A stretch of DNA of 64,000 nt, from positions 48,297 through 112,296 of the forward strand of contig CALHBJ010000006.1 of NCBI GenBank assembly GCA_937930845.1, in the 5' to 3' direction. How positions within the stretch are numbered: the stretch's first letter is position 1; every line of letters starts with the position of its first letter. The position numbers and the translations under genes were made by a program. Below the pieces are notes generated by a model. The model ran no database searches, was not told where the DNA came from, and worked only from the letters and a program-made list of their open reading frames with translations. The stretch comes from an uncultured Rhizobiaceae group bacterium (GTDB taxonomy: Bacteria > Pseudomonadota > Alphaproteobacteria > Rhizobiales > Rhizobiaceae). This document shows, one piece after another, positions 11,057 to 43,358 of the stretch.

Positions 11057-11149
11057 ATTGGGCTGAATTGGAAGCGCAGGACACAAATGTGGTTGACGCC
11101 TGATTTCCAATCCGATTATGGTGCTGTCGCAGATTTAAGAAGGTACGAC

Positions 11150-11200
11150 ATGTTCAGACTTATCGTAGTAGTGGGAAAGCGCGTTGGCATGATGGGATGA
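11150..11200 (+). CDS. ilv leader peptide
   Basis: A 16-codon reading frame, MFRLIVVVGKRVGMMG, preceded by AAGAAGG. It holds a run of the regulating amino acids (Leu-Ile-Val-Val-Val, then another Val). The frame runs into the first hairpin of the attenuator ahead of ilvB. Peptides of this kind let ribosome stalling at branched-chain codons control read-through. It is too short for the ORF track. Confidence 0.85.
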   Translation: MFRLIVVVGKRVGMMG

Positions 11201-11250
11201 ACTCCATCATGAATGCTAACGCGCGTCAGGCTCCTTCGGGGGCCTTTTTT
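11180..11250 (+). promoter_or_regulatory. Transcription attenuator of the ilv operon
   Basis: A long hairpin pairs GCGCGTTGGCATGATGG (11180 onward, covering the end of the leader peptide) with CCATCATGAATGCTAACGCGC (to 11224). It is followed by a terminator, AGGCTCC-TTCG-GGGGCCT plus six T (11228-11250). This is the classic pause hairpin and terminator layout. I did not map the antiterminator pairing exactly. With the Leu/Ile/Val-rich leader peptide it predicts ilvB-ilvN expression when charged branched-chain tRNAs are scarce. Confidence 0.85.
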
Positions 11251-11334
11251 ATTGCCGGAATCATCTCGAAAGAGAATTTCGGTTTGGAGCAGAGCCGGCA
11301 GATCCGGCAAACAAAGTTCAGGTGAGACAAACAA

Positions 11335-13128
11335 ATGGCCAGTACGAAAAAGAGCGGAACCGAAGGACGCGAAATGACCGGAGCGGAGATGGTGGTTCAG
11401 GCCATGATCGACAATGGTGTGACCGACCTGTTTGGATATCCCGGTGGTGCAGTGCTTCCCATCTATGATGAGTTGCATCAACAGGATCGCATTCGCCATA
11501 TTCTTGTGCGCCACGAACAAGGTGCAGGACATGCCGCGGAAGGATATGCCCGCTCGACCGGCAAGCCCGGTGTGGTTCTTGTGACGTCTGGTCCAGGTGC
11601 CACCAACACGGTTACCCCACTCCAGGACGCCTTGATGGATTCAATTCCTTTGGTCTGCATTACCGGGCAGGTGCCCACACCATTGATCGGTTCTGATGCT
11701 TTTCAGGAATGTGACACGGTTGGCATTACCCGCCCCTGCACCAAACACAATTGGCTGGTTGATGATGTCAATGAACTCAGCCGCATCCTGCATGAGGCGT
11801 TTCATGTGGCTACGTCTGGCCGGCCCGGACCGGTTGTTGTGGATGTTCCAAAGGATATTCAATTTGCAACGGGAACCTATTTCCCGCCCGATGCTTTTGA
11901 CATGGGGCATTACCAGCCGCGCACCCAGGGAGACATGGATAAGATCAGGGAAGCCGTGGACCTGATGATGTCGGCGAAACGTCCGATCCTCTATACGGGT
12001 GGCGGCGTGATCAACTCCGGGAGCGAAGCAACGAAATTGTTGCGGGAACTGGTTGCACTTACAAATTTCCCGATCACGTCCACTTTGATGGGATTGGGCT
12101 GTTATCCGGCCAGCGGTGACAACTGGCTTGGCATGTTGGGCATGCACGGCACCTATGAAGCCAATATGACGATGCATGATTGCGATGTCATGGTGTGCAT
12201 CGGGGCCCGGTTTGATGACCGGATCACGGGACGCCTGGACGCCTTTGCGCCGGAAGCTAAGAAAATTCACATTGATGTCGACCCTTCCTCGATCAACAAG
12301 GTGGTCCACGCCGATGTGCCAATCATTGGTGATGTTGCTGCCGTTTTGAAAGAAATGGTGGCGCTGGTGAAAAACACCAAGGCGCGGCCCAAGGCCAGCG
12401 ATATGAAGAAATGGTGGGAGCAGATCGACCAGTGGCGTGCCCGCAAGTCTTTGTCTTATAAACCAAATCCAGACGTAATCATGCCGCAAATGGCGATTGA
12501 GCGTCTCTATGCGCTGACAAAAGATCTCGATACTTACATCACTACGGAAGTTGGCCAGCACCAGATGTGGGCGGCGCAATTCTATGGGTTTGATGAGCCC
12601 AATCGCTGGATGACATCCGGCGGCCTTGGCACTATGGGCTACGGCCTTCCTGCTGCTTTGGGTGTTCAGATTGCGCATCCGGATGCGCTTGTGGTCGACA
12701 TTGCCGGCGATGCTTCCATTCAGATGTGCATTCAGGAAATGTCGTGCGCGGTGCAGCATAATGCACCCATCAAGATCATGATCCTGAACAACGAATATAT
12801 GGGCATGGTGCGCCAATGGCAGCAATTGTTGCACGGCAATCGCCTGTCCCATTCCTATACCGAAGCGATGCCGGATTTTGTCAAGCTGGCGGAAGCCTAT
12901 GGGGGGCACGGCATTCGTTGCACGAAGCCATCTCAACTGGATGATGCGATCATGGAAATGATCGAGACTCCTGGACCTGTGATCTTCGATTGCTGTGTGG
13001 TGACTCTGGCCAATTGTTTCCCAATGATCCCATCGGGCAAGGCACATAATGAAATGTTGTTGCCGGATGAGGCAACCGATGAGGCGGTCGGTTCTGTCAT
13101 TGACGAAAAGGGCAAGGCGCTGGTGTGA
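11335..13128 (+). CDS. ilvB: Acetolactate synthase large subunit
   Basis: Thiamine-diphosphate enzyme that condenses two pyruvates, or pyruvate with 2-oxobutyrate, as the first common step to valine, leucine and isoleucine. Landmarks are GYPGGAVLPIYDEL, the catalytic-glutamate region RHEQGAGHAAEGYAR, a central FAD/Rossmann-like domain, and the cofactor motif GDASIQMCIQEM ending in ILNN. The length of 597 residues is typical. The catalytic subunit lies behind an attenuator, and its stop overlaps the start of an EamA transporter gene that separates it from the regulatory subunit gene. The naming ilvB versus ilvI is arbitrary. Confidence 0.95.
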   Translation: MASTKKSGTEGREMTGAEMVVQAMIDNGVTDLFGYPGGAVLPIYDELHQQDRIRHILVRHEQGAGHAAEGYARSTGKPGVVLVTSGPGATNTVTPLQDALMDSIPLVCITGQVPTPLIGSDAFQECDTVGITRPCTKHNWLVDDVNELSRILHEAFHVATSGRPGPVVVDVPKDIQFATGTYFPPDAFDMGHYQPRTQGDMDKIREAVDLMMSAKRPILYTGGGVINSGSEATKLLRELVALTNFPITSTLMGLGCYPASGDNWLGMLGMHGTYEANMTMHDCDVMVCIGARFDDRITGRLDAFAPEAKKIHIDVDPSSINKVVHADVPIIGDVAAVLKEMVALVKNTKARPKASDMKKWWEQIDQWRARKSLSYKPNPDVIMPQMAIERLYALTKDLDTYITTEVGQHQMWAAQFYGFDEPNRWMTSGGLGTMGYGLPAALGVQIAHPDALVVDIAGDASIQMCIQEMSCAVQHNAPIKIMILNNEYMGMVRQWQQLLHGNRLSHSYTEAMPDFVKLAEAYGGHGIRCTKPSQLDDAIMEMIETPGPVIFDCCVVTLANCFPMIPSGKAHNEMLLPDEATDEAVGSVIDEKGKALV

Positions 13129-14063
13129 CCCAGATGACGGACCCAGTGGCCCAGTCGGCGAGTGCCAATGTTGGCATGGGAGACTATGTTCTGCTTGTGC
13201 TGCTGGCGACCATCCTTGCGTCTAATTTCGCAATGACCAAGGTTTCGGTTCAGGCATTGCCGCCAATGTTTGTCGTGTCGGTTCGCCTGGCAATTGCGTC
13301 CACCATTCTCGTTGGTGTTATGCTGGCCGCGCGTATGTGGTTTCCCACCGGGCCGATTTGGGCAGCCATTATTGGTTCCGCATTTTTTGGGCACACATTG
13401 CCGTTTACGCTGTTGGCATGGGGCCAGACGCGGGTTGATGCGGGGCTGGCTGCAATCCTGATGGCGACCATGCCGTTGTTCACCCTGTTGCTGGCGCAAT
13501 TATTCACCAATGACGAGCGGCCCAACCGGTATTCTGTTCTGGGTTTTTCGCTGGCGCTAATTGGCGTGATTGTGCTGTTTGGGCCAAGCCGCCTGATCAG
13601 CCTGGCAGATCAAAGCTTGCGCCAATATGCCGTGATGTTGGCGGCTATGAGCTATGGTGCAAACGCCATCATCACCAAAGGTCTGACCGGGATTAAATGG
13701 CAGCAATCGACGGCATCCTTCATGCTTGTGGCGTTTTTGATGTCTCTTCCCTTGCTGTTGCTCAGTGATTTGAGCGACCTGTCTGCACCGACCCATGTGT
13801 GGATGGCAACATTATATACGGGCATCATGCCCACATCTGTTGGGGCCATTCTCATCGTGCTGGTGGTGCGCCGGGCAGGGGCGTCTTTCCTGTCACAGAT
13901 CAACTTTCTGGTGCCGGTATTTGGCACCGTATTTGCAATTCTGTTTCTGGGTGAGCAATTGCCGCCCAATGCAGTCATTGCGCTTGCAGTTATTCTAACC
14001 GGTGTCGCGATTGCGCGGCGCCGTCCAAAACGAGCCCTCATTTCGATCAATAAAGGCGTGTGA
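13125..14063 (+). CDS. EamA/DMT-superfamily transporter inside the ilv operon
   Basis: An integral membrane protein with about ten predicted helices and two EamA repeats, the pattern of drug/metabolite exporters and permeases. The recognisable features are an N-terminal GDYVLLVLLATILASNFAMTKV helix and the end-of-repeat FGTVFAILFLGEQLPPNAVI. The gene overlaps ilvB by 4 bp at its start (GTG; an ATG lies three codons later) and ilvN by 4 bp at its end, so it is certainly part of the ilv transcript. An efflux role for a branched-chain amino acid or precursor is a guess from position only. Confidence 0.88.
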   Translation: MTQMTDPVAQSASANVGMGDYVLLVLLATILASNFAMTKVSVQALPPMFVVSVRLAIASTILVGVMLAARMWFPTGPIWAAIIGSAFFGHTLPFTLLAWGQTRVDAGLAAILMATMPLFTLLLAQLFTNDERPNRYSVLGFSLALIGVIVLFGPSRLISLADQSLRQYAVMLAAMSYGANAIITKGLTGIKWQQSTASFMLVAFLMSLPLLLLSDLSDLSAPTHVWMATLYTGIMPTSVGAILIVLVVRRAGASFLSQINFLVPVFGTVFAILFLGEQLPPNAVIALAVILTGVAIARRRPKRALISINKGV

Positions 14064-14662
14064 TTCCGATGACCAAAACTATCCACAACCAGAACAAAAT
14101 CGTTACTCCGCCGGCATCGGCCTATTTCATAGAGAAGAATCTCGATGTGGTGGTGCAACACACATTGTCCGTACTGGTCGACAATGAAGCAGGCGTGTTG
14201 GCCCGGGTGATCGGCCTTTTCTCAGGCCGTGGCTATAATATCGAAAGCCTGACCGTCTCTGAGACCGAACATGAAAAGCATCTGTCGCGCATTACCATCA
14301 TTTCCAAGGGCACGCCCAAAGTGCTGGAACAAATCAAACGTCAGCTTGAGCGCATGGTGCCGGTGCACCGGGTGGTTGATCTCACACTTGTCGCCCATTC
14401 AAAGGGCCATGAAAAACCGCTAGAGCGCGAACTGGCACTGGTGAAGGTTGCAGCGGTGGGTGAGCACCGGGTTGAATCCCTGCGCCTGGCGGAGGCATTT
14501 GGTGCCATCGTAACCGATGCCACGACCGAACATTTCATTTTTGAAATTACCGGTCGCCAGCAAAAGGTGGAGCAATTCATCTCGATTATTTCACCGCTGG
14601 GTCTTGTAGAAGTGTGCCGAACCGGCATCGCGGCGATGAACCGCGGCCCAGAGGGCATGTAG
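14060..14662 (+). CDS. ilvN: Acetolactate synthase small (regulatory) subunit
   Basis: Activates the large subunit and confers valine feedback inhibition. An ACT domain near residues 30-100 (HTLSVLVDNEAGVLARVIGLF, then GYNIESLTVSETE) is followed by the conserved C-terminal domain of this family (EHFIFEITGRQQKVEQFI). It may start at GTG 14060, overlapping the transporter gene, or at ATG 14069. The 200-residue size fits the alphaproteobacterial IlvH/IlvN form. Confidence 0.93.
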   Translation: MIPMTKTIHNQNKIVTPPASAYFIEKNLDVVVQHTLSVLVDNEAGVLARVIGLFSGRGYNIESLTVSETEHEKHLSRITIISKGTPKVLEQIKRQLERMVPVHRVVDLTLVAHSKGHEKPLERELALVKVAAVGEHRVESLRLAEAFGAIVTDATTEHFIFEITGRQQKVEQFISIISPLGLVEVCRTGIAAMNRGPEGM

Positions 14663-14713
14663 TTTTAAGTAAGAACGGCGAATGCTTCGTCGCTGACCGA
14701 TCTTAGAAATCAA

Positions 14714-15313
14714 ATGATGTCTCTCACAACGTTTCTGGCCTTGCTGACATTTTCCTTTGTGTCGTCCATCACACCGGGTCCAAACAACATCATGCTGTTT
14801 GCTTCAGGGGTGAATTTTGGGCTGCGACGCACTGTCCCACATATGTTTGGGATAGCGTTTGGGTTTGGATTGTTACTTGCCGCCGTTGGTCTGGGACTGG
14901 GCGCCCTGTTGGAAGCTTTTCCGGCCATCCTGATTGCGCTGAAGATATGTGGCGGGGCTTATATGCTCTATCTCGCCTGGAAAATTGCCAATTCAGGCCC
15001 CGTTGAAGTGGGCGAAAGTGGTGCTCGCCCCATGCGATTCCTGGAAGCTGCGCTTTTTCAATGGGTTAATCCGAAAGCCTGGGTAATGGCTGTGGTGGCC
15101 ATGGCGACATACACCAGTGAGGGCACTTATTGGGTCAATGTTGCAATTGTGGTTTTTGCTTTCTGTCTCGTTAATTTTCCTTCCGTCTCTGTGTGGGCTG
15201 GGTTTGGGACTGTTCTGCGAAATTTCCTGCAAGACCCTGTAAAATTGAAGTTTTTCAACATTTGCATGGCGCTGGCCTTGGTTGCCTCACTGTGGCCGAT
15301 GCTGGCAGCATAA
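14714..15313 (+). CDS. LysE/RhtB-family amino-acid exporter
   Basis: A 199-residue membrane protein with about six predicted helices and the family signature SSITPGPNNIMLFASGVNFG near the N-terminus. Members export amino acids or related metabolites; the substrate here cannot be told. It follows ilvN by 51 bp on the same strand and could be an operon tail, but the spacer makes that uncertain. Two start ATGs are adjacent (14714 and 14717). Confidence 0.87.
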   Translation: MMSLTTFLALLTFSFVSSITPGPNNIMLFASGVNFGLRRTVPHMFGIAFGFGLLLAAVGLGLGALLEAFPAILIALKICGGAYMLYLAWKIANSGPVEVGESGARPMRFLEAALFQWVNPKAWVMAVVAMATYTSEGTYWVNVAIVVFAFCLVNFPSVSVWAGFGTVLRNFLQDPVKLKFFNICMALALVASLWPMLAA

Positions 15314-42428: not shown

Positions 42429-43234
42429 CGTGAGGTTGGCCAGTCATGGGTTTCGTCAAATGCATCGCGTGCCCAACGGTAAAATGCATCGTAAAGAAGC
42501 ATCCCGGCATCAAGCTGCGCCAGATCGTCCTTGTATAGACGCGATAAGCCAAGGGAAGCAGCCATGAGACCAGCAGCCTGTGGGGAAGAATCAATCTTGT
42601 CAGTATCTGCTGCACGGATGATTTCTGCCAGCCGGCGCAACCCTGTGAACTCAAGCTGCCATTCTGCAATCATCGTATCGAAGGTGCAGGTGTCGCCGCG
42701 ATGGCTCCAAAATGCGTCTTCGATATCAAAAGGGGTGGCATTGAATTTTTCGGCCACGGCCTCGACTTCTGCAGGGGCGACAAAAAGGAACCGGGCGCTG
42801 GGGTCAATGAAGCGGCGGATCAGCCATGGGCAGGCGATGCGATCGATCTTGGGCCGGTGCCGGGTAACCCAGGTCGTTCGGTTTTGAGAGTCCGTAGGCG
42901 GTATCGCTTTTGCTGGCACGAGAGGCAGCCCGGCATCGCGCCATGCGAATATTCCCCCTTCCAGATATTGAGCGTGAATGCCTTCCAACCTTAGCAAAGC
43001 TGCAACGCCTGCGCTGAGCTTCTTGCCCTTTTGGCAAATAACGATAATGGGCCCATCCCCCAGTTGCGGTGCCAATTCATCAATCAAGTTGTAGGGATGG
43101 CGAAACGAGGTCGGTATGAATCTGGGGTCGTCGTGAAAATCTTCATCGATGCAGACATCGACCAATTTGGGACAGTCGGGCGTGCCAATGAGGCGGGCCA
43201 ATTGGGAAACTGTAATCGTGTTTAGAGATGGCAT
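42425..43234 (-). CDS. Rhodanese-ChrB fusion, chromate resistance protein
   Basis: A 269-residue fusion. Residues 1-110 form a rhodanese-like domain with the active-site cysteine in PIIVICQKGKKLSAGV. Residues ~125-269 form a ChrB C-terminal domain (WVTRHRPKIDRIACPWLIRRF; FDIEDAFWSHRGDTCTFDTMI). ChrB-type domains are associated with chromate sensing or resistance, and the rhodanese half suggests a thiol/persulfide step. It is the first gene of the chrA operon. There is no DNA-binding region like that of classic ChrB, so a regulatory role is doubtful. Confidence 0.86.
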   Translation of the reverse strand: MPSLNTITVSQLARLIGTPDCPKLVDVCIDEDFHDDPRFIPTSFRHPYNLIDELAPQLGDGPIIVICQKGKKLSAGVAALLRLEGIHAQYLEGGIFAWRDAGLPLVPAKAIPPTDSQNRTTWVTRHRPKIDRIACPWLIRRFIDPSARFLFVAPAEVEAVAEKFNATPFDIEDAFWSHRGDTCTFDTMIAEWQLEFTGLRRLAEIIRAADTDKIDSSPQAAGLMAASLGLSRLYKDDLAQLDAGMLLYDAFYRWARDAFDETHDWPTSR

Positions 43235-43358
43235 AGTGCATCCTTTCTCTGACCTGAGTGGATGCGATACTTGGGCCTTGGCCTCACGGGGCGTTCGCGG
43301 ACCCCTTGGCTTTATTGGTATCTTCGGCTGCAGCGCAGGTCAAGCGGACGGCGTCGCC

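Follow-up and report, generated by a model that had tools for sequence, protein, structure and literature searches.

Introduction

How is the acetolactate synthase operon of this Rhizobiaceae bacterium controlled, and does the transporter gene embedded in it share that control? The locus lies in a 64,000-nucleotide stretch of DNA (hereafter the window), and the initial annotation had proposed that a short leader peptide, a long hairpin and a terminator upstream of ilvB govern the whole transcript by ribosome-mediated attenuation. Attenuators of this kind are already known for alphaproteobacterial ilvB and ilvIH, so the finding is ordinary in kind. Papers citing Vitreschak 2004 credit that study with a cis-regulatory element of Sinorhizobium meliloti ilvIH (PMC2573895) and with an alphaproteobacterial 'ilvB leader peptide' (PMC1273637), and attenuation of Caulobacter ilvBN, involving Ile and Val codons, is described in PMC4117421, which cites Tarleton 1994. 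What the present analysis adds is a link between the RNA family RF02502 and the attenuator, the missing antiterminator, and the associations with transporters.

Results

Layout of the leader region

The elements found upstream of ilvB are the following.

11093..11122, + strand, promoter-like site TTGACG-N18-TATGGT (consensus scan, 9/12; start predicted at about 11129)
11137..11143, + strand, Shine-Dalgarno (SD)-like AAGAAGG of the leader ORF (from sequence)
11146..11260, + strand, full-length match to RF02502 (Atu_C8), 61.8 bits, E = 1.9e-10, model positions 1-122 of 122
11150..11200, + strand, leader peptide ORF MFRLIVVVGKRVGMMG, start ATG, stop TGA at 11198-11200
11179..11224, + strand, long hairpin (arms 1 and 2), 46 nt, -26.3 kcal/mol
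11228..11250, + strand, intrinsic terminator AGGCTCC-TTCG-GGGGCCT plus T-run (arms 3 and 4; stem-loop 11228-11245)

As had been claimed, a 16-residue leader with Leu, Ile and three Val codons occupies 11150-11200, and a long hairpin that overlaps it (11179-11224) is followed by a TTCG-loop terminator (hairpin 11228-11245, -11.5 kcal/mol, 6 T). The control codons Leu-Ile-Val-Val-Val span 11159-11173 (Leu CTT at 11159, Ile ATC at 11162, Val GTA/GTA/GTG at 11165-11173); the 5' arm of the long hairpin begins 5 nt past the last Val codon, and the leader stop codon falls within its apical loop. With the control codons just before arm 1 and the stop codon in the loop, the state of the long hairpin, open or closed, should therefore depend on where the ribosome stands. 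The two hairpins lie side by side without overlap, and the folding of the leader is unusually stable (z = -3.9; 0/200 shuffles equally stable). Three features by which a branched-chain attenuator is recognized are found in the window: an ORF with an LIVVV run, a hairpin overlapping the ORF together with a terminator, and an acetolactate synthase gene downstream. The Caulobacter crescentus ilvBN leader (ilvL), as described in the citing paper, likewise combines a leader containing Ile and Val codons with a rho-independent terminator before the same operon, and E. coli thrL and trpL also share the control-codon leader, hairpin and terminator.

By consensus match, a TTGACG...TANNNT site also lies about 27 nt 5' of the ATG in genus siblings. 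Of 84 leaders whose promoter fits the consensus well, 47 have a -10 box that ends 6-10 nt upstream of the ATG and 36, the window included, one that ends 23-32 nt upstream. The short spacing suggests leaderless translation, which has been reported for S. meliloti trpL (PMC7298713; PMC10117765). The S. meliloti trp attenuator (rnTrpL/peTrpL) resembles the window in being a rhizobial leader-peptide attenuator; it is leaderless, as the core Rhizobiaceae ilvB leaders appear to be, whereas the window has an SD-like site and a predicted start about 20 nt upstream.

Conservation of the leader

A scan of the whole window against Rfam (cut-off for RF02502, 50 bits) found RF02502 alone above cut-off at the leader, and no riboswitch or T-box family there. 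Elsewhere in the window, on the - strand, the scan matched a chrB-a cis-regulatory RNA (43232-43310, RF03078, 67 bits) and an alphaproteobacterial two-piece tmRNA (777-1138, RF01849, 287.5 bits). A single RF02502 copy was found in this genome. The family is present in 13/14 other genomes of the genus, in 47/61 relatives overall and in 179/298 genomes of the order; it is near-absent from the class sample (4/240 genomes) and rare outside Hyphomicrobiales, the lone strong match outside the order sitting before an MFS gene. The match in Sinorhizobium meliloti Ak57 scores 121 bits and ends 44 nt before a gene annotated 'acetolactate synthase 3 large subunit' (ilvI/ilvB). S. meliloti is a named case of the attenuator credited to Vitreschak 2004. 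That attenuator and the leader studied here agree in gene, bacterial class, leader peptide and cis-regulatory assignment; the genus of the window differs in that a transporter gene separates ilvB from ilvN.

We read 118 leader copies, of which 117, from Hyphomicrobiales, could be analysed. Conservation of peptide and hairpins in close relatives, on which the initial annotation had staked its proposal, is borne out by 13/14 genus genomes and 117/117 leaders: every leader has a terminator and a short ORF with at least three consecutive L/I/V codons. Runs of at least three, four and five such codons occur in 100%, 91% and 50% of the real leaders; in approximate dinucleotide shuffles of them the figures are 10%, 1.9% and 0.3%. 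The position of the stop codon, within the loop of the long hairpin, is nearly fixed. Both hairpins covary: in a 40-sequence alignment 93% of cells are paired and 12 pairs have changes on both sides, with a covariation score of 0.479 versus 0.229 for shuffled and at most 0.133 for slid alignments. Both-side changes were seen in 8/10 basal pairs of the long hairpin across relatives, and the terminator covaries in 4/7 pairs. The basal GCGC of both arms of the long hairpin (11179-11182 and 11221-11224) and its homologues are near-invariant across the order, more so than pairing would need.

From the peptide, the hairpins, their conservation and the gene linkage described below, we put at about 0.88 the probability that the leader is a ribosome-mediated transcription attenuator, responsive to branched-chain amino acids, of the ilvB-EamA-ilvN operon.

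Search for an antiterminator

Control codons, hairpin and terminator are arranged as in a classical attenuator, in which a stalled ribosome exposes an antiterminator that pairs with the 5' arm of the terminator (arm 3). In the window, however, no stretch of at least 4 bases exposed upstream in the stalled state pairs with that arm, so that the classical 1:2 / 2:3 / 3:4 arrangement is not found there. The same test applied to E. coli thrL and trpL recovered the 5-6 nt antiterminators exposed only on ribosome stalling (CGGGCT and CGGGC, respectively) and nothing with the ribosome at the stop codon; these two were the only controls, since for E. coli ivbL and ilvL wrong, interrupted stems were picked. 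Nor did swap and shuffle tests reveal, across the 117 leaders, any other conserved partner for the terminator 5' arm. When arm 3 was exchanged between species its pairing was not lowered, and the native combination gained nothing over the swapped, although the power of this test is limited by the little variation in arm 3; applied to the two hairpins, the swap test gave p near 1e-20 between arms 1 and 2 and 5e-15 between arms 3 and 4. The upstream sequence was in fact less complementary to arm 3 than expected from shuffling (10.9 versus 12.8).

At equilibrium, the predicted probability of the terminator stays near 1 whichever codon the ribosome occupies, a result that does not discriminate, because stalled E. 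coli thrL also stays at 0.96. When the nascent chain was folded as far as the terminator loop, arm 3 had a mean pairing of 0.52 without a ribosome, 0.51 with a stalled one and 0.47 with one at the stop codon; values this close indicate no switch in nascent folding. Two pairings that the window's nascent fold shows when no ribosome is present were rejected as candidates: an extended 1:2 helix, joining the Val codons to the terminator arm, would be covered by a stalled ribosome, and a pairing of the SD sequence GAAGG with CCUUC involves an element that core Rhizobiaceae leaders seemingly lack.

A trp-type attenuator whose 2:3 antiterminator is weak or irregular and was missed by these tests is counted within our main reading. 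Some lineages do carry a stall-exposed complement of arm 3 (for example GGGGTCTG with CAGGCCCC in L071), and the swap test has the limit just given; against this, the window lacks even 4 nt of upstream complement where thrL and trpL have 5-6 bp, native complementarity is below shuffled and native pairs are no better than swapped ones. We therefore regard a hidden antiterminator as possible but rather unlikely. Of the mechanism first proposed, the peptide, hairpins, conservation and linkage stand; regulation by textbook competing pairings is not supported, the hairpins being non-overlapping and no alternative partner of the terminator 5' arm appearing in the window, nor a conserved one in the 117 leaders.

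Alternatives: an sRNA gene or a terminator of the upstream gene

In Rfam, RF02502 (Atu_C8) is described as 'Rhizobiales sRNA' and typed 'Gene; sRNA', and a literature search on Atu_C8 returned nothing relevant. Rfam thus treats as an sRNA gene the same element for which the evidence here points to attenuation in cis by a leader that encodes a peptide. The leader could be mainly a trans-acting small RNA with its own promoter and terminator, ilvB being controlled otherwise; besides the Rfam type, the S. meliloti trp attenuator gives a precedent, since both an sRNA that acts in trans and a functional peptide come from it (PMC7298713). A free sRNA, however, would need neither the peptide and its L/I/V run, kept in 117/117 leaders, nor a position directly 5' of ilvB on the same strand, which holds for 114/118 copies (113 by tblastn, and L052 by its ORF; the remaining 4 precede an MFS transporter). 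We consider this explanation improbable. A milder form, in which the leader, once terminated, has a trans activity as well, like S. meliloti rnTrpL, is compatible with an attenuator.

That the terminator is a constitutive one serving the GGDEF gene upstream, and the short ORF a coincidence, is hardly credible: it does share the strand of the GGDEF gene and lies about 170 nt past that gene's stop (11056), but a promoter-like site comes in between, two loci (L122 and L125) keep the leader with no GGDEF homologue found upstream, and the peptide recurs in 117/117 leaders.

The operon and its embedded transporter

Downstream of the leader lie four genes.

11335..13128, + strand, ilvB, acetolactate synthase large subunit (NF006581, 1170.6 bits)
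13125..14063, + strand, EamA-family (drug/metabolite) transporter (PF00892; 4-base overlaps with ilvB and ilvN)
14060..14662, + strand, ilvN, acetolactate synthase small subunit (NF008864, 209.7 bits)
14714..15313, + strand, LysE/RhtB-type exporter (PF01810; 51 nt past ilvN)

Because the EamA gene overlaps both neighbours by 4 bases, ilvB, EamA and ilvN are very likely co-transcribed. The proposed linkage of ilvB, transporter and ilvN held up: the order ilvB-EamA-ilvN is kept in 7/7 relatives found through the EamA protein, among them uncultured Rhizobiaceae and Ahrensia sp.; an eighth match, of 28% identity, occurs without ilvB. The RF02502 cut-off was passed in six of the seven; for the seventh, L121 (same position as G298), the G298 leader scores 48.0 bits, just below it. 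Since leader and gene order are kept together, the embedded transporter would share the control exerted by the leader on ilvB and ilvN. The LysE-type exporter is possibly the final gene of the operon; no terminator-like site was seen in the gap of 14662-14714 between ilvN and the exporter, which adjoins ilvN in several relatives, not all.

Further copies of the leader

In one rhizobial genus, 45/60 genomes have at least two RF02502 copies. Twenty further copies come from that genus and from a second family; a Bcr/CflA-like MFS gene follows 14 of them, a second ilvB paralogue follows 5, and the primary ilvB follows 1. The element lies before a Bcr/CflA-type MFS gene in Rhizobium lusitanum 629, Rhizobium sp. 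CC1099, Phyllobacterium sp. A18/5-2 and Rhizobium etli IE4803. Second copies with an L/I/V-run peptide of their own stand directly before such a gene in many genomes of Rhizobium-like bacteria and in some of other Hyphomicrobiales (loci L013, L014, L060, L061, L128-L134, L139-L143, L145, L147, L149, L150, L153 and L154). A narrow literature search found no paper on leader copies before MFS transporters.

Homologues of the MFS gene may have other leaders. That of Roseobacter denitrificans pTB1 has an RF02502-negative, valine-rich leader on the same plan (MTVKFVVVVSKRRMVR and stop, hairpin, terminator), and that of Agrobacterium plasmid pAt2 has a TPP riboswitch in front; alternative MFS leaders were located at L152:758-874 and L155:801-950.

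In some genomes of the rhizobial genus with frequent second copies, the second leader precedes a second, divergent ilvB, a paralogue that shares 60-67% identity with the ilvB of the window, at L059, L135-L138 and L144 (L136, L137 and L138 being G340, G371 and G377). Two genomes (L075/L076 and L101/L102) have two ilvB genes on the same strand about 2.7 kb apart, with a leader before each.

Discussion

The attenuator would work as follows. With ample charged tRNA, the ribosome would reach the stop codon and open the long hairpin, and RNA polymerase would halt near position 11250 and release a transcript of roughly 120 nt. Under starvation, the ribosome would stall at 11159-11173, the long hairpin could close, and more polymerases would then continue into ilvB, EamA and ilvN. 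The roughly 120 bases 5' of ilvB should in this way boost production of the enzymes for valine, isoleucine and leucine when these amino acids run short; that starvation raises expression we infer from precedent in related bacteria.

Because nothing upstream was found to pair with the terminator 5' arm, the step that relieves termination does not appear to have the textbook form. Our tentative suggestion, which may well prove wrong, is that termination is set solely by the non-overlapping upstream hairpin, toggled by the ribosome without a competing antiterminator, and that the module has also been copied onto stand-alone Bcr/CflA-type MFS genes in several Hyphomicrobiales. The attenuator reading thereby exposes a gap, namely how a widespread class of ilvB leaders relieves termination.

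The results indicate that RF02502, an 'sRNA' family in Rfam, is a cis attenuator whose leader encodes a peptide, and they place a transporter with no assigned substrate inside an operon regulated by branched-chain amino acids. If the module has indeed been copied before MFS genes, a transport function would join the branched-chain starvation response, and the second copies offer a testable lead to the role of those transporters.
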